NCBI RefSeq assembly: GCF_006376615.1
Contig: NZ_VEXQ01000016.1
Location: 1 to 64,000 of the forward strand
Direction of reading: 5' to 3'
Source: Buttiauxella sp. B2
Lineage (GTDB): Bacteria; Pseudomonadota; Gammaproteobacteria; Enterobacterales; Enterobacteriaceae
Length of the DNA: 64,000 nucleotides
The notes beneath the pieces are model-generated. The model was not told where the DNA came from, searched no databases, and saw only the letters and a list, made by a program, of their open reading frames with translations. Shown here one piece after another: positions 6,420 to 46,281 of this stretch (position 1 is its first letter; every line of letters starts with the position of its first letter). A program made the position numbers and the translations under genes.

Positions 6420-8941
6420 TTAATCACCTCTTCTGACTCTTTATGCGCATTCACCTCTTCGCGACTCAGCCACAACGGTTTGCGGCCAAATGTCTTATAC
6501 ATCTCCAGCTGATCGCGATAGTGCTTCGCAGGCGTACCGTCTGGGGCAACAAAGCCACTTTGTCCAGGTGCCACAACATCCCACGCCTGCACCTCATTGC
6601 CTTTAGCGCCAAAAACAATCATGTCGTTTTCGGTGCCACGGTTTTGATATTCCGCCTGGTGAACGGCTTCATCGGCATTGGCCTGCGGCACACCGAAGAA
6701 GTTATTCGCTCTGAAGGTCAGCGGCAAGGCTGGCGTTTTCCAACCCGTTGGCTTCTCGCCATAACGCTTTGAAAGCTGCTGCCAGGTCTCTTGCAGAGCA
6801 TTTCTGACCAACTCATCGGGCGATTTACCGCCAAACAAATCGACAGCCTGCGGAATTGGCGAACTCGCCCCTTGCAATGCCTCATACAGAATTTTGGCAC
6901 CCACACTGATGTTCATAGAACCGGTTGGGCCATCCTGCGTGGTTTCATAACCGCTGGCGCTGTACCACTTGTTAAACGGAGCAGGCACGGCCTCAACAAC
7001 GGTCTGCTTTAGCATGCTGGTCAGCCAGACGTTCAAAATCGCTGAACCTGGATGCTGGTAAGTTTTGTCATCCGCATTCATGCGATTATTTCCATCCCAG
7101 GTCGCCAGAAGAGAAGCAAGCTGGCGGCGTGGATCATTGGTTGGCAACCCCTGAACTGCATGTTCAATGGATGGCAGGAACAACCGTAAATTCAGATCCT
7201 GGCGACTGGTTTTGGCAATAATGCCCCACGCCTGTTCGTGTGTGAGTTTCGGCTGAGCGTCGATAAGTTTTTTGATCTCATCAACACGATCGGCAGCGCC
7301 CCACAGGAAAGCAAAAAGATCCGATGCTGGATAACCTTCTTCTGGCGAATTGTTCCAGTTGGCGATGTAGCCCGATTTTGGATTATAGATTTGCGGGTTG
7401 TTGGCGAACGGCAAAATGCCATCCCAGTCCCATTCACCCGTTCCGGGAACCGGCAAACGCGGGTCGTGCCCAGGCTTACGTTTTGGATAGGCACCCGTAT
7501 GCACATAACCGATGTTCCCTTGTTTATCAGCGTAATACCAGTTGATGGTTAAAGCCTGATTTGCGGCCTGTTTCGTCCACTGCGTCCAGTTCTTTGCCTG
7601 CATTTGATGTGTCCAGGCCAATAGTGAAGCGACCTCTTTGCCTTCCCAGGCACGGGATTTTGCATACCCGATGGAGGTTTGCGGGTCGTTTTTGATAACG
7701 TTGCCGTGAACCGTTCGATAGACAGTGTAGGAAACCGGAGCGCCATCTTTAACATTGATCGTTTCAGTGCGGCTGAGCATTTTCACCCATTGCCCCTGGT
7801 GCTGATAATAATCAGGACGTTTGGGATCAAGTTTTTCCGCGAAGATATCAACGTCATCGCCAAATCCGGCGGTCGCACCCCAGGAAATCGTGCCGTTATG
7901 CCCAAATACCAAACCGGGATAAGCGAATGGTGTGTTGCCCACCACATCGTACCCGGCACCGTGCAGACCAATGCCATAGGTGTAGGCCGGCGCATACCAA
8001 CCAAACTGTGGCCCATTGACCATAATCGCTTTGGCGTCTGCCGCTTTTGTCTTCCCGATAACCCACATATTGCTGGTTGTCGGATAACCCGCCAGGCCGT
8101 TGGCCCCGCTGCGGGCAAATTGTTGTTCGATAACAGACTTATTTTGCTCATGGCTCAGCGCCAGCAATGCACCGTCATTGCCTTTCGCTAATCGCTCAAA
8201 CGTCGGTGGAGTGTGGTCAAAACGAGGCAAATTATAGGCAAGCTGTGTGGCCTGATTGGTTAGTTTAAAGGGATAACGATGCTCGTCAGGCTCGATAGTC
8301 GTCGACGCAGAAGGGTTGACCAGCCACTTAATCTGGTTAAAAACACCCATTCCCTGCTTGTCACCGTATTTGTCCTTCAGCGCGTTATACAGTGCAAGGT
8401 TGTCAATTTCACTGGAGCTATCAGAGAAGCGGTTCGCCATGGTGCCGACAAAAATCATCGCCACATCAAAAGGCTGCCAGTGTTGCGGTTTAAAGCCGAG
8501 GGTTGAAAACTCTTTTGGCAGCAGTTTGCCAGGATCCGCATTCACCTTATCAATCCAGGCGTTCATGCCATCGGCATAGCCTTGCAGGATAGTTTTTTCT
8601 TCAGGGGGTAACGCTTCAATTTGGGCATGAATATTGGCAGGCCAATAGTTAAGCCGAATGTCTTTATCGAAATCGAGAAATTTGCGGCCCAGCACTTCCG
8701 CCACGGTTCCCTGGGTGCTGCGGCGCGCCATTTCCATCTGGAAAAGCCTGTCTTGTGCAACCACATAGCCATAACCGTAAAACAGGTTTCGGGTGTCGTT
8801 GGCGTAAATATGAGGAACGCCGTACTCATCGCGAATGATTTTTACATCCTTACTTTGCTCCGCTGTCGCTCCCTGCGAACTCCATAACGCTGCCACCCCT
8901 GCCATAAAGCAACTCACAATAAGGCCATTTTTATTTTTCAT
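6377..8941 (-). CDS. pac: Penicillin G acylase precursor, C-terminus altered by an IS end
   Basis: An 854-residue Ntn-hydrolase precursor, colinear with E. coli and Kluyvera penicillin acylase. It has a signal peptide of about 27 residues (ending GATA-EQ), an alpha subunit opening [18 protein letters not shown], a spacer, and a beta subunit starting at Ser290 in [10 protein letters not shown], the autocatalytic cleavage and nucleophile position. It hydrolyses phenylacetyl amides in the periplasm. The native protein normally ends a few residues after 'AHKESQEV'; here '...[10 protein letters not shown]' runs into the IS terminus, giving a foreign tail [13 protein letters not shown] and a stop at 6377-6379. 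All catalytic parts are intact, so the enzyme is probably still active. Start is the ATG at 8941 after AAGAGGATACA. Confidence 0.95.
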
Positions 8942-33099: not shown

Positions 33100-33142
33100 T
33101 CATCCCGGCCCTTATCCTGATGGAAAAGAGCCGGGTGATTTT
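33100..33142 (+). terminator. Terminator of dkgA
   Basis: CCCGGC / GCCGGG core stem (33104-33109 with 33130-33135) extended by TCA/TGA, then TTTT. It overlaps the stop of the convergent cupin gene. Confidence 0.6.
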
Positions 33143-33923
33143 AAGGGTGAAAATTCACCCACTTTTGGCTTGCTAGTCCCGGTTTCGAAATAAACTGAAA
33201 TCGTGCAGGATCCTCAATAAACTGCTGATACAGCGGACCATCGGTAATCCCAAATTCGGTATAACAACGCGGCGAAGTCACCTGCAAACGCCCCGGCATA
33301 TAATGGCGATTATGCTGCCAGGCGATGTGTTCATCCTGCAACAGCGGATACCACGCCAGCCCTTTATACGCCCGTACAGCATCATATTCGAAACCATATT
33401 CTCTGTCGCACCAGGCACCAAACGTCAACGGTTCATCGGGTGATGCGGAAATAGTGGCATGCGCCCAACCTGGTGGTACCAGCACTTTTTCGCCAGGCCC
33501 TGCACAAACGGCAAAACAGCGTCCCGGATCGTCAGCGACATTTTCCTGCATGTAGATAATCGCTTTTCCCTGCCAGATTTCATAAAGCTCTGGAGGCGAC
33601 CAGCCGCTGTGGCTGCTGATTCGGTGAATATGCCCCTGGCTGCGAATCGGTTCATCGCCCAATTGCCCGGAAGCGTAAGTCACCACGCCAAACAGCAGCA
33701 TGCGCTTTCGAAGTTCTTCACGATCCTGCAAGCGCGCCACATCCATGACGATCGCATAAACATCTTCCGGCCCTTTGCAGTGCGGATCGCGCAGTGATGC
33801 ACGGATCTGATCAAGCTTACGGATTTCTGGTACCGGCCCGATAACTTCTTCGCCGTAGCTAAACCCCATAGGATGGTGGTGGATCTTCATATCCAACCCA
33901 AAACTCAGGTGCGGTTCAGCCAT
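33141..33923 (-). CDS. Cupin-type phosphoglucose isomerase-like protein, first of a pair
   Basis: 260 residues from ATG 33923, which overlaps the stop of the upstream gene by 8 bp (coupled). The longer frame to 34031 lies inside that gene and is rejected. Cupin metal ligands fit the archaeal-type phosphoglucose isomerase family (PF06560): QGHIHRISSHSGWSPPELYEIW gives two or three His and a Glu, and VPPGWAHATIS the last His. The family interconverts glucose-6-P and fructose-6-P, or related aldose/ketose phosphates. An enterobacterium already has pgi, so the true substrate is probably a different sugar phosphate. Confidence 0.8.
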   Translation of the reverse strand: MAEPHLSFGLDMKIHHHPMGFSYGEEVIGPVPEIRKLDQIRASLRDPHCKGPEDVYAIVMDVARLQDREELRKRMLLFGVVTYASGQLGDEPIRSQGHIHRISSHSGWSPPELYEIWQGKAIIYMQENVADDPGRCFAVCAGPGEKVLVPPGWAHATISASPDEPLTFGAWCDREYGFEYDAVRAYKGLAWYPLLQDEHIAWQHNRHYMPGRLQVTSPRCYTEFGITDGPLYQQFIEDPARFQFISKPGLASQKWVNFHP

Positions 33924-34479
33924 TTTGCACCTCTTTGGCCTGAATTTTTCCGTCCTGCAAAACAACGCGCAATGAAAAGCCCTGCGCCAGAGCAGCGTAA
34001 TCATGTCCGGCAATACTCGGCCAGACGGCAAGTGCTGAGAGAACTTCCGTTCCGGTGTTGATCAAGCGATGTGCGGTAAATCCAGGAATAATATGCACGG
34101 AGCCTGGCGATACTTGTTCAAGCCGCGCTTCGCCCTGCTCGTTCTGAAGCAGTAATAATCCGCTACCACGCAAGCCGAAGTACACCTCGCCTTGCTCACG
34201 ACGTTGATGGAAATGCCCGCGAGTCATATAAAACTCATCACCAACACGTCCTGGATTCAAATGCGTAGTGCCGACGAAAAGCTCGCCTTCCCCCTGTGGC
34301 GATTTCAGCATCTCAACTTGATAGATTGTCGTTTCTGAGGGGATCGACTGCCAGGTAATTTGATCGTGGAATACGCCAGCAAGATCACCGCAATGCGTGA
34401 TCTTAGTGATCATATCTTCAGCCGTGAAATGGCCATTAAGGAATGCCACACCAGGTGGCAAGCTGACAGGAATATTCAT
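33916..34479 (-). CDS. Cupin-type phosphoglucose isomerase-like protein, second of a pair
   Basis: 187 residues from ATG 34479 with GGAG 8 bp upstream; this is the usual size of cupin PGI. Metal-binding motif RGHFHQRREQGEVYFGLRG (His, His, Glu) and IIPGFTAHRLIN (His). Paralogous to the next gene but shorter. It follows rihC by about 100 bp on the same strand, so rihC and the cupin pair may be one operon linking nucleoside-derived ribose to a sugar-phosphate isomerisation (inference). Confidence 0.82.
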   Translation of the reverse strand: MNIPVSLPPGVAFLNGHFTAEDMITKITHCGDLAGVFHDQITWQSIPSETTIYQVEMLKSPQGEGELFVGTTHLNPGRVGDEFYMTRGHFHQRREQGEVYFGLRGSGLLLLQNEQGEARLEQVSPGSVHIIPGFTAHRLINTGTEVLSALAVWPSIAGHDYAALAQGFSLRVVLQDGKIQAKEVQNG

Positions 34480-34582
34480 TTTGTTTCTCCGGCCCAAGGA
34501 GAACTGCACAATCAGCATAACAGGTTAATCGATTAACCCTATTATCAGGCCGAAGAAAGTAGATCTGTGTCGCGTTAATTAA

Positions 34583-35500
34583 TCAGGGAGCCAACACCAG
34601 CACTTCTGCAACCCAGCGCTGGAAACCAGCTATATCCAGATCCAGCGCCACATGGGCGTTTGGTTCGCGCTGGTAGCGCTGTTCTATATCCACAACCGTA
34701 GTACCCGCCGTGAATTCACCGCGAGTTTCCACCGCGACAAAGCACGGTTTGGTATGGAACAATTCTGGTTTCACCAGCCAGGCGATAGCGCAGAGGTCAT
34801 GCATTCTCAAACCCGCCGACATACTGCCGCTGCGATAATGACTAAACAGCGCGTGCAGCATTTTCCCGGTTTGATTCAGGTTTGGGAGCGTTGTCAGATA
34901 TTCTGGGCTGAGCATCGCCTGATTGGTGACGTCCAGACCGCACATCACGATTTCCAGCCCGCTTTCAAACACGCGCGCCGCTGCTTCCGGGTCAATGGCG
35001 ATATTAAATTCCGCATTTGGCGTGAAGTTGCCGCGTCCCGCCGAACCGCCCATGATAACCAGGCGTTTGATCTTCGCTTTGCATTCCGGATACTGGATGA
35101 GCAATAGCGCAATATTAGTTAATGGACCAATTGCCACCAGCGTGATGGTTTCAGGACTTGCATTTAAACATTCATAAATGGCCTGAAAAGCGGGTTTATC
35201 CAATGGTTTGCGCTGATGTTCAACGAATGCGTAACCCTCCATACCAGACTGGCCATGTACATAAGCGGCATCGCGCAGTTTACGCACCAACGGGGCTGCG
35301 GCACCTTTGGCAACCGGAATGTTCTTCTGCCAGAAGTGCATAAGCTGTAGAGCATTACGCGTGGTTTTCTCAACGCTAACGTTCCCGGCGACCGTCGTCA
35401 GAAGTTTTAAATCAAGCTGTGGGGCAAAAAGTGCCGCTGCAATGGCAACTGCGTCATCGATACCCGGATCGGTGTCGAGAATGATTGAAGTTTTACTCAT
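34583..35500 (-). CDS. rihC: Ribonucleoside hydrolase RihC
   Basis: 305 residues; hydrolyses purine and pyrimidine ribonucleosides to base and ribose. The N-terminal calcium-binding motif [15 protein letters not shown] is intact, as are [11 protein letters not shown] and the active-site segment [14 protein letters not shown]. Colinear with E. coli RihC. In E. coli rihC directly follows ispH on the same strand; here an entire sugar-acid operon separates them. Confidence 0.95.
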
Positions 35501-35702: not shown

Positions 35703-36434
35703 ATGAAGCTCCCACAGGCAAACATTTCAGAATTCGTCACTCAACATCTTGCGCGACGCATTATGCACGGCGATCTCGCGCCGGGGCTTTCACTACCTGG
35801 TGAAAACGAACTGGCTGCCGAATATGAAGTTTCCCGAACTTCGGTACGCAATGCACTCCAGGTTCTGGCGGCGAAGGGGCTTATCTCGATTCAGGCCAAA
35901 AAACGAAGCACAGTGAATACCCGGGAGCAGTGGAGCCTTTTGGATATTGATGTGTTGGGATGGCTAGCAGAAGGTGAACTTGATCTGAAACTGGTTGAGC
36001 AACTGATCGTGACACGTCTGATTTTTGAGCCAAACGTGGCAACGCTTGCTGCACTAAATGCCAACGGACACGATCTAGCCGCCATGGAAGATGCACTTCA
36101 GTTAATGCGTAAAGGCCAACTCGATGCGCAAAGATCTTTGTTTGAAGAAGGTGACATGGCGTTTCACCATGCTTTATTACGCGCCACACATAACCCCTTT
36201 CTTTTAGCGCTAGGCAACGCACTTTCCGCAGCGATGGCGCTCTCCTTTCGACAGACTCTAGAAAAAGACGTGCGTCAGACCAAAGCCGCCGTTGATGAAC
36301 ACTTCCTGCTGTTTGATGCCATTCGCCTTAAACAAGTCGATAAAGCTCGCCTGCAAATGCGCAGCATTTTGCTTAATGCCGCCAAAAAACGCATCTGGCA
36401 AGATCGCCCGGAAATGTTCGATCACATCATTTGA
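35703..36434 (+). CDS. GntR/FadR-family regulator of the oxidative sugar operon (DgoR-like)
   Basis: 243 residues. N-terminal winged HTH (PGENELAAEYEVSRTSVRNAL) and a C-terminal FCD ligand domain with metal-site His residues (FHHALLRATHNPFL; DEHFLLFDAIR). It resembles DgoR, which represses the galactonate genes and is relieved by a pathway intermediate. First gene of the cluster; the palindrome at 36495-36509 between it and the kinase gene is its likely operator. Confidence 0.85.
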   Translation: MKLPQANISEFVTQHLARRIMHGDLAPGLSLPGENELAAEYEVSRTSVRNALQVLAAKGLISIQAKKRSTVNTREQWSLLDIDVLGWLAEGELDLKLVEQLIVTRLIFEPNVATLAALNANGHDLAAMEDALQLMRKGQLDAQRSLFEEGDMAFHHALLRATHNPFLLALGNALSAAMALSFRQTLEKDVRQTKAAVDEHFLLFDAIRLKQVDKARLQMRSILLNAAKKRIWQDRPEMFDHII

Positions 36435-36494
36435 TCACCAACTGACGTAATTTCGATCGCCCTCACACATTGTGGTCTTTTTATGCCTTAAGAT

Positions 36495-36532
36495 TCTTGT
36501 ACTACAAGATTACATGGTTTGTATTACTTGAA
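36495..36532. promoter_or_regulatory. Palindromic operator pair before the KDGal kinase gene
   Basis: TCTTGTA-C-TACAAGA at 36495-36509 is a perfect 15-bp palindrome. A related imperfect copy, GTTTGTATTACTTGA, starts at 36518, 23 bp (about two turns) further on. The TTGTAnTACAA core is of the type bound by GntR/FadR-family regulators. Position just before the operon's first enzyme suggests repression by the 35703 product. Confidence 0.65.
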
Positions 36533-37434
36533 TGAACAATAACTGGATTGCCATCGATTGGGGAACCACTAACTTCCGTGCATTCTTAATGCAAGGAGCA
36601 CAGCAACTTTCCCGTATAAGCCAGACCTGTGGGCTGTTATCCGTCGAAAAAGATCAATTTGCCCCGACTCTGCAATACCTGTTGCAAACGTGGCTTGAGC
36701 AATACGGCAATTTGCCGATTGTGATGGCAGGCATGGTAGGTTCGCAGCAGGGCTGGCATGAAGTACCCTACGTACCTTTGCCGTGCAATGCCCAAGATTT
36801 GGTATCACACACGCTGGCCTTTACCACTCCATGGGGTAGCCCGGCATGGCTGATTCCCGGCGCTAACGCCATCAGTCAGTTTGACCAGCCAGACGTGATG
36901 CGCGGTGAAGAAGTGCAGCTTTTCGGCTTGAGTGCTTTATATCCCGCAGATGAACATTTCGCGTTACTGCCCGGCACGCACAGCAAACATGCGCAACTGC
37001 GCCAGGGCGAGATAACGTCATTCTCCACATTTATGACAGGTGAAATTTTCTCACTGTTATCCCAACATTCTATTCTTGGCCGCGCATTGCCGGAGCAACG
37101 GGAAAATAACGAAGCCTTCCTTCTAGGTGTGAGAACCGCGATGCGGGGTGCGCCCTTCACTCATTTAATCTTTTCAGCACGCACCCGTCGTCTGGTGGGT
37201 GAAATAAACGAAGCCCACGTCCACAGCTATCTGTCTGGTTTAACCATCGGTTACGAATTGCAGGCGCTCCCCACAGGGCAACTCGCGTGGGTAGTTGGCA
37301 GCCCCTCGCTGACCGCCCGCTATGAGCTTGCGGCAAGCCAGATGGATCTGAATCTTTCTCCGGTCAATGGTCATGAATGTTTCATTCATGGCCTGTGGCA
37401 CCTATTCACCCAGCTCCAGGGAAATCAATCATGA
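36532..37434 (+). CDS. dgoK: 2-dehydro-3-deoxygalactonokinase
   Basis: 300 residues; phosphorylates 2-keto-3-deoxygalactonate (KDGal) at O6. N-terminal ATPase motif IAIDWGTTNFRAFLM, then AGMVGSQQGWHEVPYVPLP and the GTHSKHA phosphate loop, all typical of DgoK. The ribosome site is weak (no strong GGAG), which is unusual for the first enzyme gene. Overlaps the aldolase gene by ATGA. Confidence 0.93.
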   Translation: MNNNWIAIDWGTTNFRAFLMQGAQQLSRISQTCGLLSVEKDQFAPTLQYLLQTWLEQYGNLPIVMAGMVGSQQGWHEVPYVPLPCNAQDLVSHTLAFTTPWGSPAWLIPGANAISQFDQPDVMRGEEVQLFGLSALYPADEHFALLPGTHSKHAQLRQGEITSFSTFMTGEIFSLLSQHSILGRALPEQRENNEAFLLGVRTAMRGAPFTHLIFSARTRRLVGEINEAHVHSYLSGLTIGYELQALPTGQLAWVVGSPSLTARYELAASQMDLNLSPVNGHECFIHGLWHLFTQLQGNQS

Positions 37435-38078
37435 GCCCAGAAAATTTCATTACCCAGTGGCAACAAGAGCCGCTACCGCTGGTCGCCATATTGCGTGGCA
37501 TTACGCCAGCCGAAGCTGCCGAAGCGGCAGACATTTTGTTGGAATGCGGATTCCGTTATCTGGAAGTGCCGCTTAACAGTCCGTCGCCACTGGAGTCGAT
37601 TAGCCTTATGCGCGATGTCGTAGGCAAACGCGGCTACGTTGGCGCGGGTACGGTGCTTACCGTCGAACAAGTGGATGCTGTTGCCGAATGCGGCGGCCAA
37701 TTGATTATCTCCCCGAACTGCTGCCCTGACGTTATCCGCCACACCAGCAAACTTGGCTTGATAAGCATGCCGGGCATCATGACACCAAGCGAAGCGTTCA
37801 GCGCCATTGCAGCCGGAGCCAGCGCCCTGAAACTGTTCCCAGCCGAACATGTCAGCCCAGTGATTACCAAAGCTTTTCGCGCAGTAGTACCACGCGAAGT
37901 GGCGCTGTTGCCAGTTGGCGGTATTCAGCCTAACGCAGTACAAATGAGGAGTTACATGCAGGCAGGAGCCAACGGTTTCGGCCTGGGCGGTGGGTTATAT
38001 CAGGCGGGAATGAGCATGGCTTTGCTGCGTGAACGTGCACTGGCATATCAACAAGCCTGGCGCGAGTGTGCGGAGTAA
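37431..38078 (+). CDS. dgoA: 2-dehydro-3-deoxy-6-phosphogalactonate aldolase
   Basis: 215 residues from ATG 37431 (ATGA overlap with dgoK). Class I KDPG/KDPGal aldolase; cleaves KDPGal to pyruvate and glyceraldehyde-3-phosphate. Motifs: LVAILRGITPAEA, YLEVPLNSP (catalytic Glu), GAGTVLT, and the Schiff-base Lys in ALKLFPAEHVSP. Matches DgoA better than Eda by the ILRGI N-terminus and its partner gene. Confidence 0.93.
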   Translation: MSPENFITQWQQEPLPLVAILRGITPAEAAEAADILLECGFRYLEVPLNSPSPLESISLMRDVVGKRGYVGAGTVLTVEQVDAVAECGGQLIISPNCCPDVIRHTSKLGLISMPGIMTPSEAFSAIAAGASALKLFPAEHVSPVITKAFRAVVPREVALLPVGGIQPNAVQMRSYMQAGANGFGLGGGLYQAGMSMALLRERALAYQQAWRECAE

Positions 38079-38081
38079 ATC

Positions 38082-38951
38082 ATGAATCAGTTCATCGGTG
38101 GGAACGTCGAGGTTATTGGTGATTATCGTGCTCAGTTGGGTGAAACGCCGGTGTGGTGTAGCCACAGCGATTCGCTGCTGTGGGTCGATATTCTGCAAAA
38201 CCGTCTGCTGCGCTACTGGCCGAATCAGGCCGGACGCATTGATGTTCACCCGATGCCTGTTTTCACCAGCGCGGTACTGCTGACAACCCTGCCCGAGACA
38301 TTTCTGGTGGTAAGCCAGAGCGGGATCTCTGGGTACAACTATCAGAATCAGCAATTTAGCCCGCTTTGCGAATGGCCTGATGATGCGGCGGGAACGCGCC
38401 CCAACGAAGCCGCGATTGCGCCAGATGGTTCGCTGTGGTTTAGCACTATGGACCCAACGGCTCAAAAAGCTATCGGAAGTTGGTATCGAGTTAGCCGTTC
38501 AATGCCTGTTCCCCAACGCCTGCTGGGCGGCCAGTTAGTCCCCAACACCCTGCAATGGATTGATGGAAATATCTGGTTCGCCGATTCACTACGCCACACG
38601 TTTTACCGCGCAACGTTGCAATCAGATGGCCTGCACATCAAACAAGAATATCAAGTATCCGGTATTCCAGACGGTTCAACGCTCACCACCAAAAATGAAC
38701 TTATCAACGCTTGCTGGGGCAGTTCGTCCCTGACGCATTACCAGATAAGTGGCAACAAAATGGCCGAAACGAGCCAGTTAAAACTACCGGTTAGCCAACC
38801 CAGCAGTTGCACCTTCGGAGGGCCAAATCTGTCCGATCTCTACATCACTTCCGCACGAGAAGGACTCGCTGCACCCGTCGCCCTGGATGGCGCGGTTTTA
38901 AAAATAACAACAACTCATTCAGGCATACTCGCCCGCAAATTCAGGCTCTAG
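38082..38951 (+). CDS. SMP-30/gluconolactonase-family sugar lactonase
   Basis: 289 residues, six-bladed propeller. Metal ligands visible: Glu in AQLGETPVWCSHSDSLLWVDI, Asn in GTRPNEAAIAPDGSLWFSTMD, Asn near VPNTLQWIDG, Asp in IWFADSLRHTFYR. Hydrolyses an aldonolactone to the aldonate; which sugar cannot be read, but the kinase and aldolase upstream suggest galactono- or a related hexono-lactone. Starts 3 bp after dgoA. Confidence 0.88.
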   Translation: MNQFIGGNVEVIGDYRAQLGETPVWCSHSDSLLWVDILQNRLLRYWPNQAGRIDVHPMPVFTSAVLLTTLPETFLVVSQSGISGYNYQNQQFSPLCEWPDDAAGTRPNEAAIAPDGSLWFSTMDPTAQKAIGSWYRVSRSMPVPQRLLGGQLVPNTLQWIDGNIWFADSLRHTFYRATLQSDGLHIKQEYQVSGIPDGSTLTTKNELINACWGSSSLTHYQISGNKMAETSQLKLPVSQPSSCTFGGPNLSDLYITSAREGLAAPVALDGAVLKITTTHSGILARKFRL

Positions 38952-38978
38952 AATTTTCATAACTTTCAAGGTGTTATT

Positions 38979-40403
38979 ATGAGCACAATTTCTAATCCTA
39001 CACATACGAATCGCCAGACGATCCTCGTCTGTTTCCTCGCGGCACTAGCCGGGTTGCTGTTTGGCCTGGATATGGGCGTTATCGCGGGCGCACTCCCCTT
39101 TATTGCTAACGAATTTGGTTTAAGCAGCCACCACCAGGAAATCGTGGTCAGTATCATGATGTTGGGTGCAGCACTGGGCGCATTGTGCAGTGGCCCAATG
39201 TCTTCAAGCCTTGGGCGTAAGAAAAGCCTGTTGCTGGGTGCGGTGCTGTTTGTGGTTGGTTCCGTGGGTTGTGCCGTTGCGCACAACATGGAAATCCTCT
39301 CCGTATCGCGTTTTATCCTCGGCCTGGCTGTCGGCGTTGCCTCCTTCACCGCCCCGTTGTATTTGTCTGAAATCGCACCAGAACGTATCCGCGGCAGCAT
39401 GATTTCGCTTTATCAATTGATGATTACCATCGGTATCCTGGCCGCATTTTTGTCTGATACCGCACTGAGCGAAGGTGGCCACTGGCGCTGGATGCTTGGC
39501 GTTATCACCTTCCCGGCGATCATTCTCTTTGTTGGCGTGCTGACCTTACCTGAAAGCCCACGCTGGCTAGCGATGAAAGACAAACACGAGCTGGCAGGAA
39601 AAGTGCTGAAACTGCTGCGTAATTCCGACAAAGAAGCGCAGGACGAACTGAATCAGATCCGCGAAAGTGTGAAGATGAAACAGCGCGGTTTGCAGCTTTT
39701 CCGCCACAACGCAAACTTCCGCCGTTCCACCTATTTGGGCGTGTTACTCCAGTTCATGCAGCAGTTCACCGGCATGACGGTGATCATGTACTACGCGCCG
39801 AAGATCTTCGAGATCGCCGGGTTCTCCACCACCAAAGAGCAAATGTGGGGCACGGTTATCGCCGGTTTAACCAACGTTCTCGCCACCTTTATTGCCATTG
39901 CGCTGGTCGACCGTTGGGGACGCAAACCGATCCTCAAGCTAGGGTTCTCGGTCATGGCGGTGTGCATGGGTATTCTCGGTTATATGTTCTACAGCGGGAT
40001 AACTAACCCAACCGAACAATACGCTGCGGTTATCGTGCTGCTAATTTTCATCACTGGTTTTGCGATGAGTGCAGGCCCGCTTATCTGGGTGCTGTGTTCT
40101 GAAATCCAGCCGCTCGCCGGACGCGACTTTGGCGTCACCTGCTCCACGATGGCGAACTGGATTGCCAATATGATCATCGGTGCCACTTTCCTGACGCTTA
40201 TCGACACCATCGGCAGCCCGAACACCTTCTGGCTGTATGGCGTGCTGAACGTCATTTGTATTGGACTGACTGTTCTCTTCGTCCCTGAAACCAAAAGTAT
40301 TTCTCTGGAACACATCGAACGTAATTTGATGAGCGGCCTGCCGCTGCGCCAAATCGGTCTGCCGCAAAACGGAAATATCGGACAAACAGCCACAACAGAA
40401 TAA
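38979..40403 (+). CDS. MFS sugar:proton symporter (GalP/AraE/XylE type)
   Basis: 474 residues, 12 helices. Sugar-porter signatures: [47 protein letters not shown] and the C-terminal [14 protein letters not shown]. The full set and the GalP-like [17 protein letters not shown] stretch suggest import of a free hexose or pentose. Its presence in the cluster implies that the pathway starts from a free sugar rather than only from an aldonate. Confidence 0.9.
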
Positions 40404-40410
40404 AAAATTA

Positions 40411-40437
40411 TCGGGTGGCGCTGCGCTATCCGACCTA
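40411..40437. repeat. REP-like element
   Basis: TCGGGTGGCGCTGCGCTATC followed by CGACCTACA closely matches the REP/BIME unit of enterobacteria, with the GCGCTGCGC core and a pairing TCGG/CCGA stem. It sits between two genes of one operon, where it may limit read-through or protect upstream mRNA. Confidence 0.75.
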
Positions 40438-40469
40438 CAAAAGCCCAGCCCTACACCCTGGAGATGAAC

Positions 40470-41858
40470 ATGAGTGGCATAATAGAAAGAAAATCAGCGG
40501 GTTCTACCGCTGAGTCGCGGGTCTATAGCAAGATAACCAAGCGACTTATTCCGTTTTTGATTTTGTGTTATTTCTTCGCCTACCTGGACCGCGTAAACGT
40601 TGGGTTCGCCAAACTGCACATGCAGGATGCGCTGAACTTCAGCGACACGGTCTACGGGCTTGGGGCGGGCATCTTCTTTATCGGCTACTTCCTGTTTGAA
40701 ATGCCCAGCAATCTGCTGATGCAACGCTTCGGTCCACGTTTCTGGATTGCCCGCATCATGGTGACATGGGCGGTGCTTTCAGCGGGCATGATGTTTGTCA
40801 CCACGCCGACGCAGTTTTACGCGGTGCGCTTTTTACTCGGCGTGGCAGAAGCTGGCTTCTTTCCTGGCATCGTGTTTTATCTCACGCTGTGGTTCCCTTC
40901 GTGGCGATCCGCCCGCACCCTCGGGCTGTTTATTCTCGTCACGCCTCTTTCCACCATTATTGGTAGTCCGCTTTCCGGTTTGATCCTCAAGCTGTTTGAA
41001 GGCGTTGGCAGTTTGCATAACTGGCAGTGGCTGTTTTTGGTCGAAGCTGTTCCCTCTTTCCTGTTGGCGTTCGTGGTGCTGCGTTATCTGGATAACGACG
41101 TGAAATCGGCCAAATGGCTGAGCGATGCCGAAAAGCAGATTGTGATTAACGACCTGGCAAAAGACGCCGCCAACCGCGCCCTTGCTAATCAGGGCAAAGT
41201 CGACAGCAGCCTGAAAGGCATGTTGAAAAACGGCTATGTCTGGCTGTTGGCAGTGGTGTTCTTTAGCTTCAACATCGGCTACTACGGCATTAATTTCTGG
41301 CTGCCGTCGATAATCAAAAGCTCCGGTGTTAACGATGATTTCCATATCGGCCTACTGGCGGCACTACCTTATGTGTTCGGCGCATGCTTCATGGTGTGGA
41401 ACAGTCGCCACTCCGACCTGAAACAAGAACGCCGTTGGCATATCGCTATTCCTGCGCTGATCGGCTGCATTGGCCTTGCGCTGAGCGCATATTGCAGCGG
41501 TTCCACCTTCTGGATGATGGCGTGGATTTGCGTGGCGATGTCCGGCACCCTGGCGCTAATCCCAACTTATATCAGCCTGCCCGGCGCATTGCTCTCCGGT
41601 ACTGCCGCCGCCGCAGGTATCGCTTTCGTTAACTCCATCGGCAACCTGGCGGGCTTCTTTGGCCCAACGGTTCTTGGCTGGCTGAAAGACACGACTGGCC
41701 GTACCGACACCGGTTTATACATTCTGGCGGGCTTCCTGCTGCTTTGCGCCCCGCTGATCCTCACGCTGCCAGCCCGACTGGCAAACCCGAAAAAAGTTAT
41801 CGCAGTACCTGAACGCAGCGATGTGCAGCCTGATGCTGCCCATCACATTAATCGCTAA
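40470..41858 (+). CDS. MFS anion:cation symporter (DgoT/GarP-like aldonate importer)
   Basis: 462 residues from ATG 40470. The in-frame ATG at 40464 directly abuts GGAG, so the second ATG, 6 bp away, is the likely start. 12 helices; ACS-family signature FAYLDRVNVGFAKLHMQDAL and the inter-domain loop. Relatives import galactonate, glucarate or tartrate-type acids. It gives the cluster an acid-entry route beside the sugar porter. Confidence 0.88.
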   Translation: MSGIIERKSAGSTAESRVYSKITKRLIPFLILCYFFAYLDRVNVGFAKLHMQDALNFSDTVYGLGAGIFFIGYFLFEMPSNLLMQRFGPRFWIARIMVTWAVLSAGMMFVTTPTQFYAVRFLLGVAEAGFFPGIVFYLTLWFPSWRSARTLGLFILVTPLSTIIGSPLSGLILKLFEGVGSLHNWQWLFLVEAVPSFLLAFVVLRYLDNDVKSAKWLSDAEKQIVINDLAKDAANRALANQGKVDSSLKGMLKNGYVWLLAVVFFSFNIGYYGINFWLPSIIKSSGVNDDFHIGLLAALPYVFGACFMVWNSRHSDLKQERRWHIAIPALIGCIGLALSAYCSGSTFWMMAWICVAMSGTLALIPTYISLPGALLSGTAAAAGIAFVNSIGNLAGFFGPTVLGWLKDTTGRTDTGLYILAGFLLLCAPLILTLPARLANPKKVIAVPERSDVQPDAAHHINR

Positions 41859-41879
41859 CGTTATAAAGAGATTGAGAAT

Positions 41880-43586
41880 ATGAGTGGATGTGGCGGATGT
41901 GCCAGTTGTGGCACGCATTTCAACCCAATCCTTGAAGATGATGACGGCGCGCTGAAACGTGCTCTGTATAAATCAATGGGCCATACCGACGAGCAACTGC
42001 GTAAACCCGTTATTGCAGTAGTGAACAGTTACACCAACGCAACGGCGGGCCATGCCAATCTGAATGAGCTAACAGCCAAAGTGCTTGAAGGTATTGAAGA
42101 AGCCGGTGGCGTGGGCATGGTGTTTGGCACTATTGCCCCTTGCGACGGTATTGCCGAAGGGCATTTAGGAATGCGCTATATTCTCGCTGCCCGCGAGGTG
42201 ATTACCGCGTCAATCGAAGTGATGATGCGCGCCCACCGTTTTGATGGCATGGTGCTGCTCGGTTCGTGCGACAAAATCGTTCCGGCAATGTTAATGGCGG
42301 CGGCACGGCTGGATATCCCGGCGATTATGGTCAACGGCGGCCCAATGTATCCGGCTGAATATAAAGGTAAACACTGGGACGGCAACATCGTTACCGAAGC
42401 CATTGGCTGGAAGAAACGTGGCGAAATCAGCGAGGAGGAGTTCGCTCATATCGAGAACATCGCAGAACCAGGACCAGGTTCCTGCACCATGTATGGTACG
42501 GCGAACACCATGTGCTGTATCGGTGAAGTTCTGGGGATGAGTTTGCCAGGCAGCAGTACGTTGCCTGCCGTTTCGCAAGAACGCCGCGATTGCGCTGTAG
42601 AAACAGGGCGTCAGGCTGTCGAACTGGTGCTCAACGGGGTTAATGCACGCCAGATTATTACCGCAGAATCCATTCATAACGCGATGGTTTATCTGCTGGC
42701 AACCGGCGGCTCAACCAATGCCATCCTACATTTACAGGCAATTTATTACGAAGCCGAACTCGGCCATCTGCCACTTTCTGCATTTGATGAACTCAGCCAC
42801 CGAGTGCCGTTGGTTGCCTCGCTCTATCCGGCATCCGAACACGACATGATCGATTTCTGGGAAGCGGGCGGCGTGCAGGCAGTGGAGTATGAAATCAGCA
42901 AACTGATGCACATGGATGCGCTGACAGTGACAGGTAAAACCAAAGCTGAATTGCACGCCGTTGGTAAACGTAGTTGTCGCCCGGAAGTGATTCATACCCT
43001 CGCCATTCCGGTGCGTAATGAAGCCGGTGTTGCGGTGCTGCACGGTAATTTGTCGCCGCTGGGTTGCGTGGTGAAACCTGCGGCAGTGCCGGAAAACCTG
43101 ATGGTCTTCCGTGGCCCTGCTGTGGTGTTCAACAGCGAGCAAGAATCCGTCGAGGCGATTATGTCCGGCCAAATCCAGCCGGGTAGCGTGCTGGTGCTAC
43201 GCTACGAAGGCCCGAAAGGTGGCCCAGGCATGCCGGAAATGTACAAACCGATGAAATCCCTCGAAGGGATGGGCCTGTCCGATACCTGTGCATTAATTAC
43301 CGATGGGCGTTTCTCCGGCTCGAACCGCGGTTTGTTCGTCGGCCATATTTCACCGGAAGCGGTGGATGGCGGTGAACTGGGTCTGGTGGAAGACGGGGAT
43401 GAAATCTCCATTGATATTCCGTCCCGTACTCTGACGTTGCATGTGGCAGAAACTGTTCTGGCAACGCGCCGCGAAAACTGGAAACCCGTCAATAAAGAAG
43501 TTCCTCGCGGTTTTCTGCGTTTGTACCGCCGCTGGGCGTTACCTGCCGCGCAAGGTGCCGTATTGGCAGACAGGGAGGATGACTAA
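41880..43586 (+). CDS. IlvD/Edd-family sugar-acid dehydratase
   Basis: 568 residues. Fe-S ligands of the family: Cys in IAPCDGIAEGHLGM, GSCDKIVPAMLMAA and GSCTMYGTANTMCC; C-terminal ITDGRFSGSNRG. Dehydrates an aldonate to a 2-keto-3-deoxy acid. Sugar-acid members act on arabonate, xylonate, galactonate or fuconate; the dgoK/dgoA partners favour galactonate or a related hexonate. Odd: the first 12 residues hold an extra CGGCASCG cluster. In E. coli galactonate is dehydrated by DgoD (enolase superfamily), absent here. Confidence 0.88.
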   Translation: MSGCGGCASCGTHFNPILEDDDGALKRALYKSMGHTDEQLRKPVIAVVNSYTNATAGHANLNELTAKVLEGIEEAGGVGMVFGTIAPCDGIAEGHLGMRYILAAREVITASIEVMMRAHRFDGMVLLGSCDKIVPAMLMAAARLDIPAIMVNGGPMYPAEYKGKHWDGNIVTEAIGWKKRGEISEEEFAHIENIAEPGPGSCTMYGTANTMCCIGEVLGMSLPGSSTLPAVSQERRDCAVETGRQAVELVLNGVNARQIITAESIHNAMVYLLATGGSTNAILHLQAIYYEAELGHLPLSAFDELSHRVPLVASLYPASEHDMIDFWEAGGVQAVEYEISKLMHMDALTVTGKTKAELHAVGKRSCRPEVIHTLAIPVRNEAGVAVLHGNLSPLGCVVKPAAVPENLMVFRGPAVVFNSEQESVEAIMSGQIQPGSVLVLRYEGPKGGPGMPEMYKPMKSLEGMGLSDTCALITDGRFSGSNRGLFVGHISPEAVDGGELGLVEDGDEISIDIPSRTLTLHVAETVLATRRENWKPVNKEVPRGFLRLYRRWALPAAQGAVLADREDD

Positions 43587-44488
43587 TGGCTAAGCATTTT
43601 ACTGCGGCGGATATTGTTGGGGTAAACCCGATTGTCGCTATGCCGTTTACCGCTAGCGGGGAAATCGACGAAGTCAGTTTTGTGCGCCTGCTCGAGCATA
43701 TCGGCAATACCGGCGCACAAGGCACCACGCTGTTTGGCATCGCCAGCGAGTTTCCAAAACTTGAAGACAACGAGCGCAACCGCCTGGCACAACTGCTTGT
43801 CAGCACGCTGGCGGGCAGTTCGTTGTATCGGGCAATGTCCGTCACCGACCACAGCACAGAAGTTGCTGTAAAACGTGCGCGTTATTACGCCTCACTGGGT
43901 GCTGATGCACTCATGCTGCTGCCACCGTTTTTCCTGCAACCCAGTCCACAGGCGATTCAGGAACATATTTTTGCTGTGCTGGAAGCGGTGGATATTCCGG
44001 TGATGGTGCAATACGCACCGGGAGAAACAGGTCTTGCGATTACCCCAGAACAGTTAGCGGCAGTCGCTGTTCGTTATCCCCATGCGGTGTTTAAAATCGA
44101 GTGCAATCCGCCAGTGGATTACACCCGTGAATTCTTAGCCAAAGCTCCGCAGGCCAGCGTGCTTAATGGCTATGCTGGATTGTATATGCTGCAAATGTTG
44201 GAGGCAGGTGGCAAAGGCGTGATGCCAGGTTGTTCGTTTAGCGAAGTGTATGTGCGCATTTACCAACAATGGCAGCGCGGAGAACAGCAACAGGCCGAGG
44301 CATTGCACCAGGCGCTGCTACCGTACATACAGCGCTGGATGGCGCACTGCGAATACATCATTCAGGTCGAGAAAACGATTCTGATGCAGCGCGGCCTTAT
44401 CGCGACCGATTATTGCCGTAAACCTGGCTGGCATCTTACGCCTGAAGATCATCAGCTTATTGACAACTTCATCAGGGAATTATTATGA
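43586..44488 (+). CDS. DapA-family 2-keto-3-deoxy acid aldolase or dehydratase
   Basis: 300 residues, TIM barrel. Schiff-base Lys in VFKIECNPPVDYT; catalytic Tyr in VMVQYAPGETG; the usual GTTGE loop reads LFGIASEF. Relatives include KDG/KDGal aldolases, L-KDA dehydratase and NanA-like lyases; the exact reaction is open. Starts in a TAATG overlap with the dehydratase gene. It would give a non-phosphorylated branch parallel to dgoK/dgoA, or serve a different chain length. Confidence 0.85.
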   Translation: MAKHFTAADIVGVNPIVAMPFTASGEIDEVSFVRLLEHIGNTGAQGTTLFGIASEFPKLEDNERNRLAQLLVSTLAGSSLYRAMSVTDHSTEVAVKRARYYASLGADALMLLPPFFLQPSPQAIQEHIFAVLEAVDIPVMVQYAPGETGLAITPEQLAAVAVRYPHAVFKIECNPPVDYTREFLAKAPQASVLNGYAGLYMLQMLEAGGKGVMPGCSFSEVYVRIYQQWQRGEQQQAEALHQALLPYIQRWMAHCEYIIQVEKTILMQRGLIATDYCRKPGWHLTPEDHQLIDNFIRELL

Positions 44489-45267
44489 AAACCCAACAAT
44501 CTACTCGCGTAATCATCGTGACCGGAGCCAGCCAAGGGATTGGCCACGCGATAGCGCAAACTTATCTGAATAATGGCGATATTGTCATTGGTTGTGCTTA
44601 TTCCACACTGGAAAAAGCGAGTGGCGCGCAAAAATTACTGGCTGATTATCCGGAGCGTTTCTTCTACTTTTCCGTCGATGTCACCAAAACCGAGTCAATA
44701 AAGCAGTTTGTTACCGATGCTGAAAAACTGTTTGGCCATATTGATGTGCTGGTGTCAAATGCAGGCAAGAACGTCTTTAAAGGGATTGATTGCGAAGAGA
44801 ACGACTGGTCGCATAACTTTGACCTGAACTTGCGCTCCCATTGGTTTATGGCGAAATGTGCCCGTCCTGCGCTAGCCAAAAGCAAAGGGGTGATTCTTAT
44901 CATGACTTCAAATCACGCGTTCTCTACCATGCCAGGATGTGCACCTTATAACATTAGCAAACGTGCATTGCTGTCGCTGGTACAGAGCCTGACTATCGAA
45001 TGGGGGCCAGAAATTCGTACCGTCGGCATCGCGCCTGGTTTTATCGATACCGACGGCAATCAGGTGTGGTTTGATTCACACACTGACGGACGTCTCGCCC
45101 GTGAAAAAACCATCAAAAAACACCCTGTCGGGCGTATTGGTCGCCCTGAAGAAGTAGGCGAACTTTGCCTGTTCCTATCCAGCGAAAACGCCGGTTTTAT
45201 TGCTGGCACCACGATTGTGATGGATGGCGGGCGTAGTGCCATCATGCAAGATAGAGACGACGTTTGA
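44485..45267 (+). CDS. Short-chain dehydrogenase/reductase, probable sugar dehydrogenase
   Basis: 260 residues. Classical SDR: VTGASQGIGHAIAQ cofactor loop, VSNAGKN, catalytic Ser in MTSNHAFSTM, and Tyr/Lys in YNISKRALLSL. Family members oxidise galactose, glucose, arabinose or fucose to lactones with NAD(P)+. ATGA overlap with the DapA-type gene; last gene before a terminator. In the model it performs the first step, before the lactonase. Confidence 0.88.
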   Translation: MKTQQSTRVIIVTGASQGIGHAIAQTYLNNGDIVIGCAYSTLEKASGAQKLLADYPERFFYFSVDVTKTESIKQFVTDAEKLFGHIDVLVSNAGKNVFKGIDCEENDWSHNFDLNLRSHWFMAKCARPALAKSKGVILIMTSNHAFSTMPGCAPYNISKRALLSLVQSLTIEWGPEIRTVGIAPGFIDTDGNQVWFDSHTDGRLAREKTIKKHPVGRIGRPEEVGELCLFLSSENAGFIAGTTIVMDGGRSAIMQDRDDV

Positions 45268-45283
45268 TAAATCGCAGGTATAA

Positions 45284-45309
45284 AAATGGGGAGCCGAGGC
45301 TCCCCATTT
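45284..45309. terminator. Bidirectional terminator between the SDR gene and ispH
   Basis: AAATGGGGAGCC / GGCTCCCCATTT 12-bp stem with a tight loop; A/T tracts flank both sides, so it can serve both converging transcripts. Confidence 0.85.
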
Positions 45310-45330
45310 AATTCTGTCTGATGGCCGAAA

Positions 45331-46281
45331 TCACTCGACTTCTTTCACATCCACACGTAGCTCACGCGGCACTTCGAAAACGATGTTTTCTTCACGCCCA
45401 ATCAGCTCACGCGCTTCGCTGCCACCCAGTTCACGCAGGCGAGCCAGCACGTTTTGTACCAGAATATCTGGCGCAGACGCCCCAGCAGTCACACCGACAC
45501 ACTTGGCATCTTTAACCCAGACATCCTGGATATCAGTTGCATCGTCAATCAGGTATGCGGCTTTGCCCATGCGTTGTGCAAGCTCAGCAAGACGATTGGA
45601 GTTGGACGAGTTTTTCGACCCCACGACCAGCACCACGTCAGCTTCATCTGCCAGCGCACGCACGGCTTCCTGACGGTTAGTCGTTGCGTAGCAAATGTCA
45701 TCTTTACGTGGGCCGATGATTTTCGGGAAGCGTTTACGCAGCGCGTCAATCACATCTGAAGTGTCATCCACAGAAAGCGTGGTCTGCGTCATAAACGAAA
45801 GTTTGGTTTCGTTTTTCACATCCAGCTTGCCGACATCTTCCGGTGATTCAACCAAGTACATGCCACCTTTTGGGTTGCTGTACTGGCCCATGGTGCCCTC
45901 CACTTCCGGGTGACCAGCATGGCCAATCAGAATGGATTCTTCACCACGACGGCTGGCGCGAGCAACTTCCATATGCACTTTGGTCACCAGTGGGCAAGTC
46001 GCATCAAACACCGTTAAATCACGGCCTTTTGCTTCGCTGCGCACCGCCTGAGAAACTCCGTGTGCTGAGAAAATCAGGATTGCGCCATCCGGCACCTCAC
46101 TGATCTGCTCGATGAAAATCGCCCCACGTTCGCGCAGGCTATCTACCACATAGCGGTTGTGCACCACTTCGTGGCGGACATAAATTGGCGCGCCGTAAAT
46201 GGCCAGCGCGTTTTCAACAATGCTGATAGCGCGGTCTACCCCGGCACAAAAGCCGCGAGGGTTAGCCAACAGGATCTGCAT
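45331..46281 (-). CDS. ispH: 4-hydroxy-3-methylbut-2-enyl diphosphate reductase
   Basis: 316 residues; last step of the MEP isoprenoid pathway, giving IPP and DMAPP. [4Fe-4S] ligand cysteines in [26 protein letters not shown] and [14 protein letters not shown]; catalytic Glu in [11 protein letters not shown]. Overlaps fkpB by 20 bp; end of the ribF-ileS-lspA-fkpB-ispH operon. Confidence 0.97.

Follow-up and report, generated by a model that had tools for sequence, protein, structure and literature searches.

A predicted modular sugar-acid operon between rihC and ispH of Buttiauxella sp. B2 and the dehydratase-like active site of its DapA-type protein

The 64,000-nucleotide stretch of Buttiauxella sp. 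B2 DNA analyzed here, referred to as the window, carries on its + strand nine open reading frames (ORFs) at 35703-45267, the first (starting at 35703) encoding a GntR-type regulator and the last (ending at 45267) an SDR protein. By Pfam, with each match above the gathering score, the nine families were GntR with FCD, DGOK, KDPG/KHG aldolase, SGL lactonase, sugar porter, MFS, ILVD_EDD, DHDPS, and SDR. Which sugar or sugar acid would such a set degrade, and how would the degradation end? An earlier note on this DNA had proposed a route from a sugar via its lactone and aldonate to a 2-keto-3-deoxy acid, ending in a galactose-type lower branch and a second, non-phosphorylated aldolase branch.

The best explanation, which we hold tentatively and with confidence only a little short of even, is that the nine genes form an oxidative operon, modular and induced by its substrate, which serves a galacto-configured aldose together with the corresponding aldonate and has a forked ending. 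The sugar porter would bring the sugar into the cell, the SDR would oxidize C1 to yield the lactone, and the SMP-30 protein would open the lactone, while the ACS-family importer would bring in ready-made aldonate. The IlvD-type iron-sulfur enzyme would convert the aldonate into a 2-keto-3-deoxy acid, at which point the route would divide. DgoK would phosphorylate acids with a 6-hydroxyl group (2-keto-3-deoxy-D-galactonate), and DgoA would cleave the product, giving pyruvate and glyceraldehyde 3-phosphate. For acids not phosphorylatable at C6, derived from L-arabinonate or D-fuconate, the DapA-type Schiff-base enzyme would carry out a second dehydration that yields a 2,5-diketo acid, to be finished by housekeeping dehydrogenases. 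Control would lie with a repressor similar to DgoR, whose pocket is altered and in part less polar, acting at a double operator that also resembles that of DgoR. Sequence comparison shows the gene content, the modularity, the conserved residues, the loss of the aldolase tyrosine, and the conservation of the operator; from these we infer the reaction order, the substrates (a galacto-configured sugar or acid), the fork, and what becomes of the diketo acid.

The DapA-type protein and the two predicted branches

The DHDPS/NAL-family (DapA-type) protein (43586..44488, + strand) has a dehydratase-like active site. In the protein alignments, which accepted only ORFs covering at least 80% of the window protein and whose row counts include the window, the Schiff-base residue Lys170, Gln142 at the site of the aldolase tyrosine, and Glu172 were each present in 45/45 rows. 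These residues match Lys171, Gln143, and Glu173, the residues named for L-2-keto-3-deoxyarabonate dehydratase in PMC9795676, and the structural-genomics protein 3dz1 shares the dehydratase-type active-site feature. The proposed aldolase branch did not survive this comparison, as Gln stands in place of the aldolase tyrosine in every row and the Lys170-x-Glu172 pair is that of the dehydratase; an aldolase role for the DapA-type protein is improbable. The same substitution tells against a plain De Ley-Doudoroff D-galactose pathway, in which the IlvD-type enzyme would do the job of DgoD and the DapA-type protein would be the 2-keto-3-deoxygalactonate aldolase. That pathway has the presence of the DgoK and DgoA types in its favor, and we consider it unlikely on the whole.

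A phylum-wide search for the DapA-type protein (398 genomes, E 1e-45, few candidates scored per genome) returned 3 matches, all from the genus of the window, and added no further gene context. Outside the Proteobacteria, proteins with the same Gln and Lys-x-Glu adjoined aldonate-dehydratase-type genes in 2 of the 4 contexts read. In the first, from Streptomyces (L101), the protein stood beside a PfkB kinase and an IlvD dehydratase of a sugar-acid subfamily (PRK06131 868 bits, cut-off 539), whose score of 818 bits with the L-arabinonate dehydratase profile fell just under the cut-off of 882. In the second, from Halocatena (L100), it adjoined an L-rhamnonate-dehydratase-like protein (246 bits, cut-off 393), with an alpha-L-rhamnosidase near. 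An SDR and a KDPG aldolase lay near the Embleya protein (L102), and no dehydratase gene was resolved near the proteins of L102 and L103. These distant contexts support action of the DapA-type protein on 2-keto-3-deoxy acids, some of them perhaps 6-deoxy.

With confidence somewhat below even, we regard it as possible that this protein is a so far undescribed Schiff-base enzyme of class I, marked by Gln, Lys-x-Glu, and no second base, that acts on 2-keto-3-deoxy-hexonates or 6-deoxyhexonates either as a dehydratase or as a C4 epimerase. Together with the IlvD enzyme, which resembles dihydroxy-acid dehydratase (DHAD), it would form a mobile core through which Enterobacterales and Vibrionales gain, in addition to the classical D-galactonate operon, a branching route that handles D-fucose, L-arabinose, or aldonates related to these.

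The kinase branch would be formed by a DgoK-type 2-keto-3-deoxygalactonokinase (36532..37434, + strand; PF05035 278 bits; PDB 3r1x E 1.7e-46) and a DgoA-type 2-keto-3-deoxy-6-phosphogalactonate aldolase (37431..38078, + strand; PRK09140 269.5 bits, cut-off 207; PDB 2v81 E 1e-49). The dgoA start was taken as the ATG at the dgoK overlap (37431), the start in the ORF list being 37377. Glu46 and Lys135 of DgoA (numbered from 37428), the latter of which we take to be catalytic, were kept in 44/44 rows. The operon DgoK is 36% identical to a second DgoK of the same genome. A second dgoK-dgoA pair of the window's own genome (L095 2312-9952, G000:C56) is accompanied by an amidohydrolase and a D-serine-dehydratase-like protein, and by eye its neighbors include a regulator, a RidA-like protein, and a transporter, perhaps forming an N-acetyl-D-galactosaminate route.

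Four proteins would supply the aldonate. The sugar porter of the MFS type (38979..40403, + strand; TIGR00879 452 bits, cut-off 238), whose presence is linked to that of the SDR, is the putative importer of the free sugar. The SDR oxidoreductase (44485..45267, + strand; PF13561) is predicted to be an aldose 1-dehydrogenase, and its Ser142, Tyr155, and Lys159, presumably the catalytic residues, were kept in 26/26 aligned rows. The SMP-30 family sugar lactonase (38082..38951, + strand; PF08450 156 bits) kept E21, N155, and D197, which we assume to be metal ligands, in 19/19 aligned rows. The DgoT-like MFS protein of the ACS family (40464..41858, + strand) scored 316 bits with the D-galactonate transporter profile TIGR00893, below its cut-off of 395; it was retained in loci that lack the sugar-oxidizing genes and is the candidate acid importer. 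The earlier proposals of a sugar-to-2-keto-3-deoxy-acid route with its own importer, and of a lower branch of the DgoK/DgoA type, therefore stand as readings of protein families and gene company.

The IlvD-type dehydratase, DgoD, and the repressor

The IlvD/EDD-family protein (41880..43586, + strand; PF00920 and PF24877), which forms a clade with the other operon copies, is the predicted aldonate dehydratase. C130 and C202 were kept in 50/50 rows and the catalytic Ser479 in 49/50, with one gap, and both superfamily domains are present. With 640 bits against a cut-off of 618 for TIGR00110 (ilvD), the protein falls in the DHAD group. When the first cysteine was compared by alignment on 6nte and not on the Rhizobium enzyme, Gly57 stood in 50/50 rows where 6nte has the Cys of its TPC motif, taken as the first cluster ligand. 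The genome's own housekeeping IlvD likewise has Gly at this site (PGH), which we take to be the pattern of [4Fe-4S] members. A C-terminal His is described in PMC11316719 as conserved in sugar-acid dehydratases; it is absent here, His being the last residue in 0/50 rows and among the last six in 1/50. Because of the DHAD-group profile and the missing sugar-acid marks, a sugar-acid activity is thus argued from context and not from subfamily.

The TIGR00110 score would suit a branched-chain amino acid dehydratase in an operon that is a loose assembly, an explanation to which we give hardly any weight. The window genome has a separate IlvD (618-amino-acid frame) and an Edd-like gene, both named from the tree and by recognizing the sequence. 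All outgroup genomes (7/7) had one or more additional IlvD-family matches, which in 5/7 grouped with the window genome's IlvD (the other two are outside the tree), and the gene order is repeated in many genera. In the tree, whose 39 rows were chosen from more and which has long branches, the operon copies formed one group (support 88/92 with the Marinisporobacter copy L078, 97/96 without it), apart from the housekeeping IlvD and Edd-like rows. Lone Propionivibrio copies fell inside the operon group, and the sister group was not resolved. We discarded a housekeeping role for the lone Propionivibrio IlvD (69%) because both genomes have another long IlvD-like match.

The claim that the IlvD-type enzyme replaces DgoD proved correct for the window genome and wrong as a rule. 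In that genome, DgoD gave no match at E 1e-100 and none among the nine proteins, the best match to the Vibrio DgoD being 42% over part of its length, as the plain De Ley-Doudoroff pathway would lead one to expect. Against both that pathway and the replacement claim, canonical DgoD was present in 24 of the 33 genomes with operon-type IlvD, a set defined by the IlvD match, compared with 121 of the 392 family genomes overall. This positive association (odds ratio 7.2, Fisher p 2.7e-7; kinship ignored, and the 392 include small reduced genomes) was used only as an argument against replacement. Given the enrichment of DgoD, the substrate of the operon is probably not D-galactonate, or not D-galactonate alone; in the 9/33 genomes where DgoD is missing, the operon could be the galactonate route. 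A galactokinase domain was found in 32 of the 33 genomes, which bears out the earlier remark that the operon occurs alongside Leloir genes and is a further point against a plain D-galactose pathway.

In the Vibrionales, a DgoD-type gene stood directly before the IlvD gene in 5/5 loci. The protein of L068 scored 646 bits with the galactonate dehydratase profile (cut-off 311) and is 55% identical to the E. coli-type DgoD, and the other four are 76-82% identical to the L068 copy. In the four loci examined (L081 excluded), the rest of the gap is filled, by reading, with three TRAP transporter-like genes.

The breadth of the proposed front end is modeled on a Rhizobium IlvD-family dehydratase, for which PMC11316719 gives wild-type kcat/Km values of 4400 for D-fuconate, 930 for D-galactonate, and 570 for L-arabinonate per mM per min. 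That enzyme takes all three acids, which means that a single front end is able to supply both branches.

The DgoR-like GntR/FCD repressor of 243 amino acids (35703..36434, + strand; Pfam GntR and FCD) is 33% identical to the annotated DgoR of an E. coli plasmid locus (L034). In its alignment, from which GntR rows below 42% identity were excluded, Arg102 and the DgoR metal site D151/H155/H200 were kept in 45/45 rows. The D-galactonate contact residues of DgoR are given in PMC7674646 from docking and mutants. Among the eight non-metal contacts, R102 and D184 are kept in the window repressor, and Q173, R179, W181, T191, S221, and R224 are changed. Three polar residues became non-polar, Q173 to M/L in 45/45 rows, T191 to A in 45/45, and S221 to A in 43/45, and none of the 44 rows aligned at the W181 site has W. 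This loss of polar contacts is an indirect hint of an effector that resembles D-galactonate but makes fewer polar contacts, such as D-fuconate or L-arabinonate, and the altered contacts are a last point against a plain D-galactose pathway.

The DgoR-like character of regulator and operator speaks for that same pathway. The predicted operator palindrome CTTGTACTACAAG (36496..36508, + strand) is the sole match in the window, where 0.14 would be expected at no more than one mismatch, and its pattern was found in 30/50 named loci. It shares the core TTGTAnTACAA with the IR1 repeat of DgoR, TTGTAGTACAA. According to PMC12288454, DgoR binds two inverted repeats that lie close together, one of them containing the core TTGTAGTACAA, and responds to D-galactonate. 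A second, imperfect operator-like repeat, TTGTATTACTTGA (36519..36531, + strand), is predicted from reading the sequence. It is conserved in an alignment of 28 sequences of the gap between gntR and dgoK, and so is the element CGATCnnnCTCACA (36454..36467, + strand); we assume that its function is possibly that of a CRP site.

Locus, modularity, and distribution

Fifty named loci were collected by IlvD protein match and compared in a gene-presence matrix with set identity thresholds. All nine genes were present in 12/50 loci, and the lactonase alone was missing in 5/50. The six-gene acid-only core GntR-DgoK-DgoA-ACS-IlvD-DapA made up 13/50, and one more locus (L047) had this core with only a fragment of dgoK. 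GntR-ACS-IlvD-DapA stood alone in 2/50 (Shimwellia L051 and Serratia quinivorans L073), the five Vibrionales loci had GntR-DgoK-DgoA-IlvD-DapA, and a further 5/50 had IlvD only or nothing above the thresholds. The remaining seven were single patterns: L055, L057, L066 (cut by the contig end), L077, L079 (partial DapA), L082, and L084.

A full-length porter was present in 19/50 loci, with the SDR in 18/18 of those whose contig continues, and neither occurred in the 21 acid-only, minimal, and Vibrionales loci. Strict linkage is contradicted by an SDR without a porter in L055, L077, L082, and L084 and by an SDR with a porter fragment in L057. Between rihC and ispH, B. noackiae and B. gaviniae likewise carry an operon, in its acid-only form, while B. 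agrestis has porter and SDR, so that the same locus occurs in congeners with and without the sugar module. Given the acid-only loci and the co-occurrence of porter and SDR, the genes for turning sugar into acid seem to have been added to a core for acid catabolism. The comparison across genera that the earlier note had called for thus confirmed a recurring gene order but not a fixed unit, the sugar-to-acid part being detachable.

The nine-gene operon itself is real. The same gene order recurs across other genera and is therefore not a chance run of ORFs. With the dgoA start at the ATG 37431, the eight intergenic gaps range from -4 to +97 bp, five of them being at most 21 bp, and three adjacent gene pairs overlap by 1 to 4 bp. 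The operon is flanked by rihC (34583-35500, - strand) and by ispH (45331-46281, - strand), which is convergent to it and was named by sequence recognition. In the congener G374, which has no operon-type IlvD, the aligned ends of ispH and rihC lie 75 bp apart. Because this site is empty there, the description of the genes as inserted between rihC and ispH is correct. A perfect hairpin, AAATGGGGAGCC-GA-GGCTCCCCATTT (45284..45309), read in the 63-bp gap 45268-45330, is likely a terminator shared by the operon and the convergent ispH. The operon IlvD of the window and its counterpart in B. noackiae ATCC 51607 (L065) share 99% identity. Just past rihC (33141-34518, - strand) lie two tandem cupin-type proteins with the archaeal-type glucose-6-phosphate isomerase domain (PF06560); the tandem recurs in six further named loci of Buttiauxella and in Cedecea L044.

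Operon-type IlvD was found in 33/392 sampled family genomes (E <=1e-180, 83-100% identity), and also in Vibrio-, Colwellia-, and Silvimonas-type bacteria. DgoK had a match anywhere in 33/33 of these IlvD-bearing genomes; by match position, a full-length DgoK lay within about 6.5 kb of IlvD in 29/33, with a fragment in one and none in three. A near match occurred in 1 of 5426 E. coli genomes, on plasmid pWP4-S18-ESBL-07_1 (L034 10208-24071). There, the acid-only core lies beside a canonical dgoRKAD and MFS set, with its gntR separate, on the opposite strand and behind a broken transposase.

Several loci looked like decay forms. Serratia quinivorans retains only the start of dgoK (L073, about 8440-8600), Serratia sp. 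AKBS12 has a dgoK fragment (L047 7381-7662), and Hafnia alvei GB001 (L057 8151-13399) retains ACS-IlvD-DapA-SDR and a porter fragment, without regulator or kinase. Expression of D-galactonate genes by Hafnia alvei GB001 in cheese is described in PMC6706770, where the gene set is unspecified, and was not used as evidence. A Marinisporobacter metagenome-assembled genome (L078 9407-18650) encodes a 67% IlvD, a weakly similar SDR and lactonase, and an aldose 1-epimerase, and has an RraA-like protein at the position of the DapA-type gene, perhaps as a functional substitute. In Pseudocolwellia, a polysaccharide lyase family 8 (PL8) protein is encoded directly 3′ of the operon according to a domain scan (L077 12771-16028). 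Colwellia has a look-alike (L082 12760-16029), the scan having covered L077 only, and the PL8 gene of these two Colwelliaceae loci was not used as a substrate clue. By eye, the Silvimonas core (L064) and the lone Propionivibrio IlvD relative (L072) both adjoin an alaS-like gene, a common site in distant bacteria.

Weighing the proposed forked route against known pathways

A number of observations weigh against the forked route. No aldehyde dehydrogenase was found among the nine genes by Pfam, and none was recognized by eye in the printed neighborhoods, where most genes were unscanned; the ketoglutarate-semialdehyde dehydrogenase is likewise absent from the nine genes, the rest of the genome not having been searched for it. 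The IlvD-type enzyme lies outside the L-arabinonate dehydratase subfamily PRK13016 (397 bits, cut-off 882), and two Herbaspirillum IlvD-family dehydratases described in PMC6336799 are specific for one acid each, so the broad acid range is borrowed by analogy. The Vibrionales, with DgoD beside IlvD, may use the kinase branch for DgoD alone. As to the repressor, R179 is kept in 7/45 rows and R224 is changed only to Lys (41/45), and the DgoR contact list rests on docking plus mutants.

The DapA-type protein contributes its own counterevidence. The second base of L-2-keto-3-deoxyarabonate dehydratase, Glu200, is absent, and Gly-Tyr-Ala-Gly is aligned there in 45/45 rows (Tyr196-Ala197 in the window protein). 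The AlphaFold model had a predicted local distance difference test (pLDDT) score of 91, and in Foldseek its ranks 1-9 were L-2-keto-3-deoxyarabonate dehydratase chains, with 7c0c at the top (best E 8e-22, 28% identity), by a small margin. DHDPS chains (E 8e-20) and YagE (1e-18) followed with similar template modeling (TM) scores, so the fold does not discriminate. Since Glu200 is not conserved and the TM-scores are undiscriminating, we call the protein dehydratase-like and not a member of that group.

DgoK and DgoA both accompany the full-length DapA-type gene in 37/43 loci, which could mean that the enzymes act in series. The DapA-type enzyme would then remove the C4 hydroxyl reversibly and so flip the C4 configuration, which would make the IlvD product acceptable to DgoK. 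Such elimination and re-addition would need a C3 base, and Glu172 is retained whereas the aligned C5 base is not; the PfkB kinase adjoining in Streptomyces and the KDPG aldolase near in Embleya would fit as well. The operon without DgoK and DgoA in Shimwellia and Serratia quinivorans contradicts this role, a point weakened for Shimwellia by another DgoK elsewhere in its genome (G109; the L073 genome was not searched). To our knowledge, there is no epimerase of such kind in the DHDPS/NAL family, and we judge the serial role improbable.

The forked route also has to be set beside known systems. With De Ley-Doudoroff metabolism and dgoRKADT of E. coli, the operon shares DgoK, DgoA, the FCD repressor, a DgoT-like importer, and the operator core; it differs in having an IlvD-type dehydratase instead of or beside DgoD, an added DapA-type protein, a sugar oxidation module, and a changed effector pocket. 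The Weimberg (route II) L-arabinose pathway, for example of Azospirillum, is alike in its aldose dehydrogenase, lactonase, IlvD/EDD dehydratase, and Schiff-base DHDPS-family enzyme with Gln and Lys-x-Glu, as presented in PMC9795676. The operon departs from it by lacking the ketoglutarate-semialdehyde dehydrogenase and the aligned Glu200, by its other IlvD subfamily, and by its added kinase and phosphorylated-acid aldolase. The E. coli D-xylonate genes YagE/YagF/YagG likewise combine an IlvD/EDD dehydratase, a DHDPS-family enzyme, and an adjoining sugar-acid importer. However, YagE has kept the aldolase Tyr (YNFP) and has Lys-Asp where the operon protein has Gln and Lys-x-Glu, and no kinase gene lies within the 8 kb examined, whereas the operon has DgoK. 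The L-fucose (fum) pathway of Bifidobacterium, as outlined in PMC6817895, also passes a 6-deoxyhexose through a dehydrogenase, a lactonase, a dehydratase, and a 2-keto-3-deoxy acid enzyme. It differs in the opposite sugar series, predicted aldol cleavage, and LacI-type regulators, and DgoK/DgoA are not in the gene lists given there.

The sulfofucolytic and sulfoglycolytic Entner-Doudoroff pathways share the order of SDR, lactonase, and dehydratase, and PMC12421959 names the same families for them (SDR PF13561, lactonase PF08450, and for sulfoquinovose the dehydratase PF00920). A sulfosugar pathway of this sulfofucose or sulfoquinovose type is nevertheless very improbable here. The PF03328 aldolase by which those pathways, as described there, yield sulfolactaldehyde is missing from the nine proteins, the sulfofucose route uses an enolase-family dehydratase in the same account, and no sulfolactaldehyde gene was recognized in a by-eye look. 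A 6-sulfo sugar, moreover, is not phosphorylatable at C6, yet DgoK and DgoA are retained.

Among the matches listed from the open-licence literature, titles and abstract starts contained no description of this operon, which is not proof of absence. The operon is common to many genera and is a variant assembled from known pathway types, in which the reaction of one enzyme may be new. Its dehydratase passes the NCBI cut-off for 'dihydroxy-acid dehydratase', and the pair on the E. coli plasmid is annotated in this way and as a 'dihydrodipicolinate synthase family protein', generic annotations that hide a sugar-acid operon. If the reading of the active site is true, a large Schiff-base family would gain a new reaction, and one oxidative front end could serve hexoses, pentoses, and 6-deoxy sugars.

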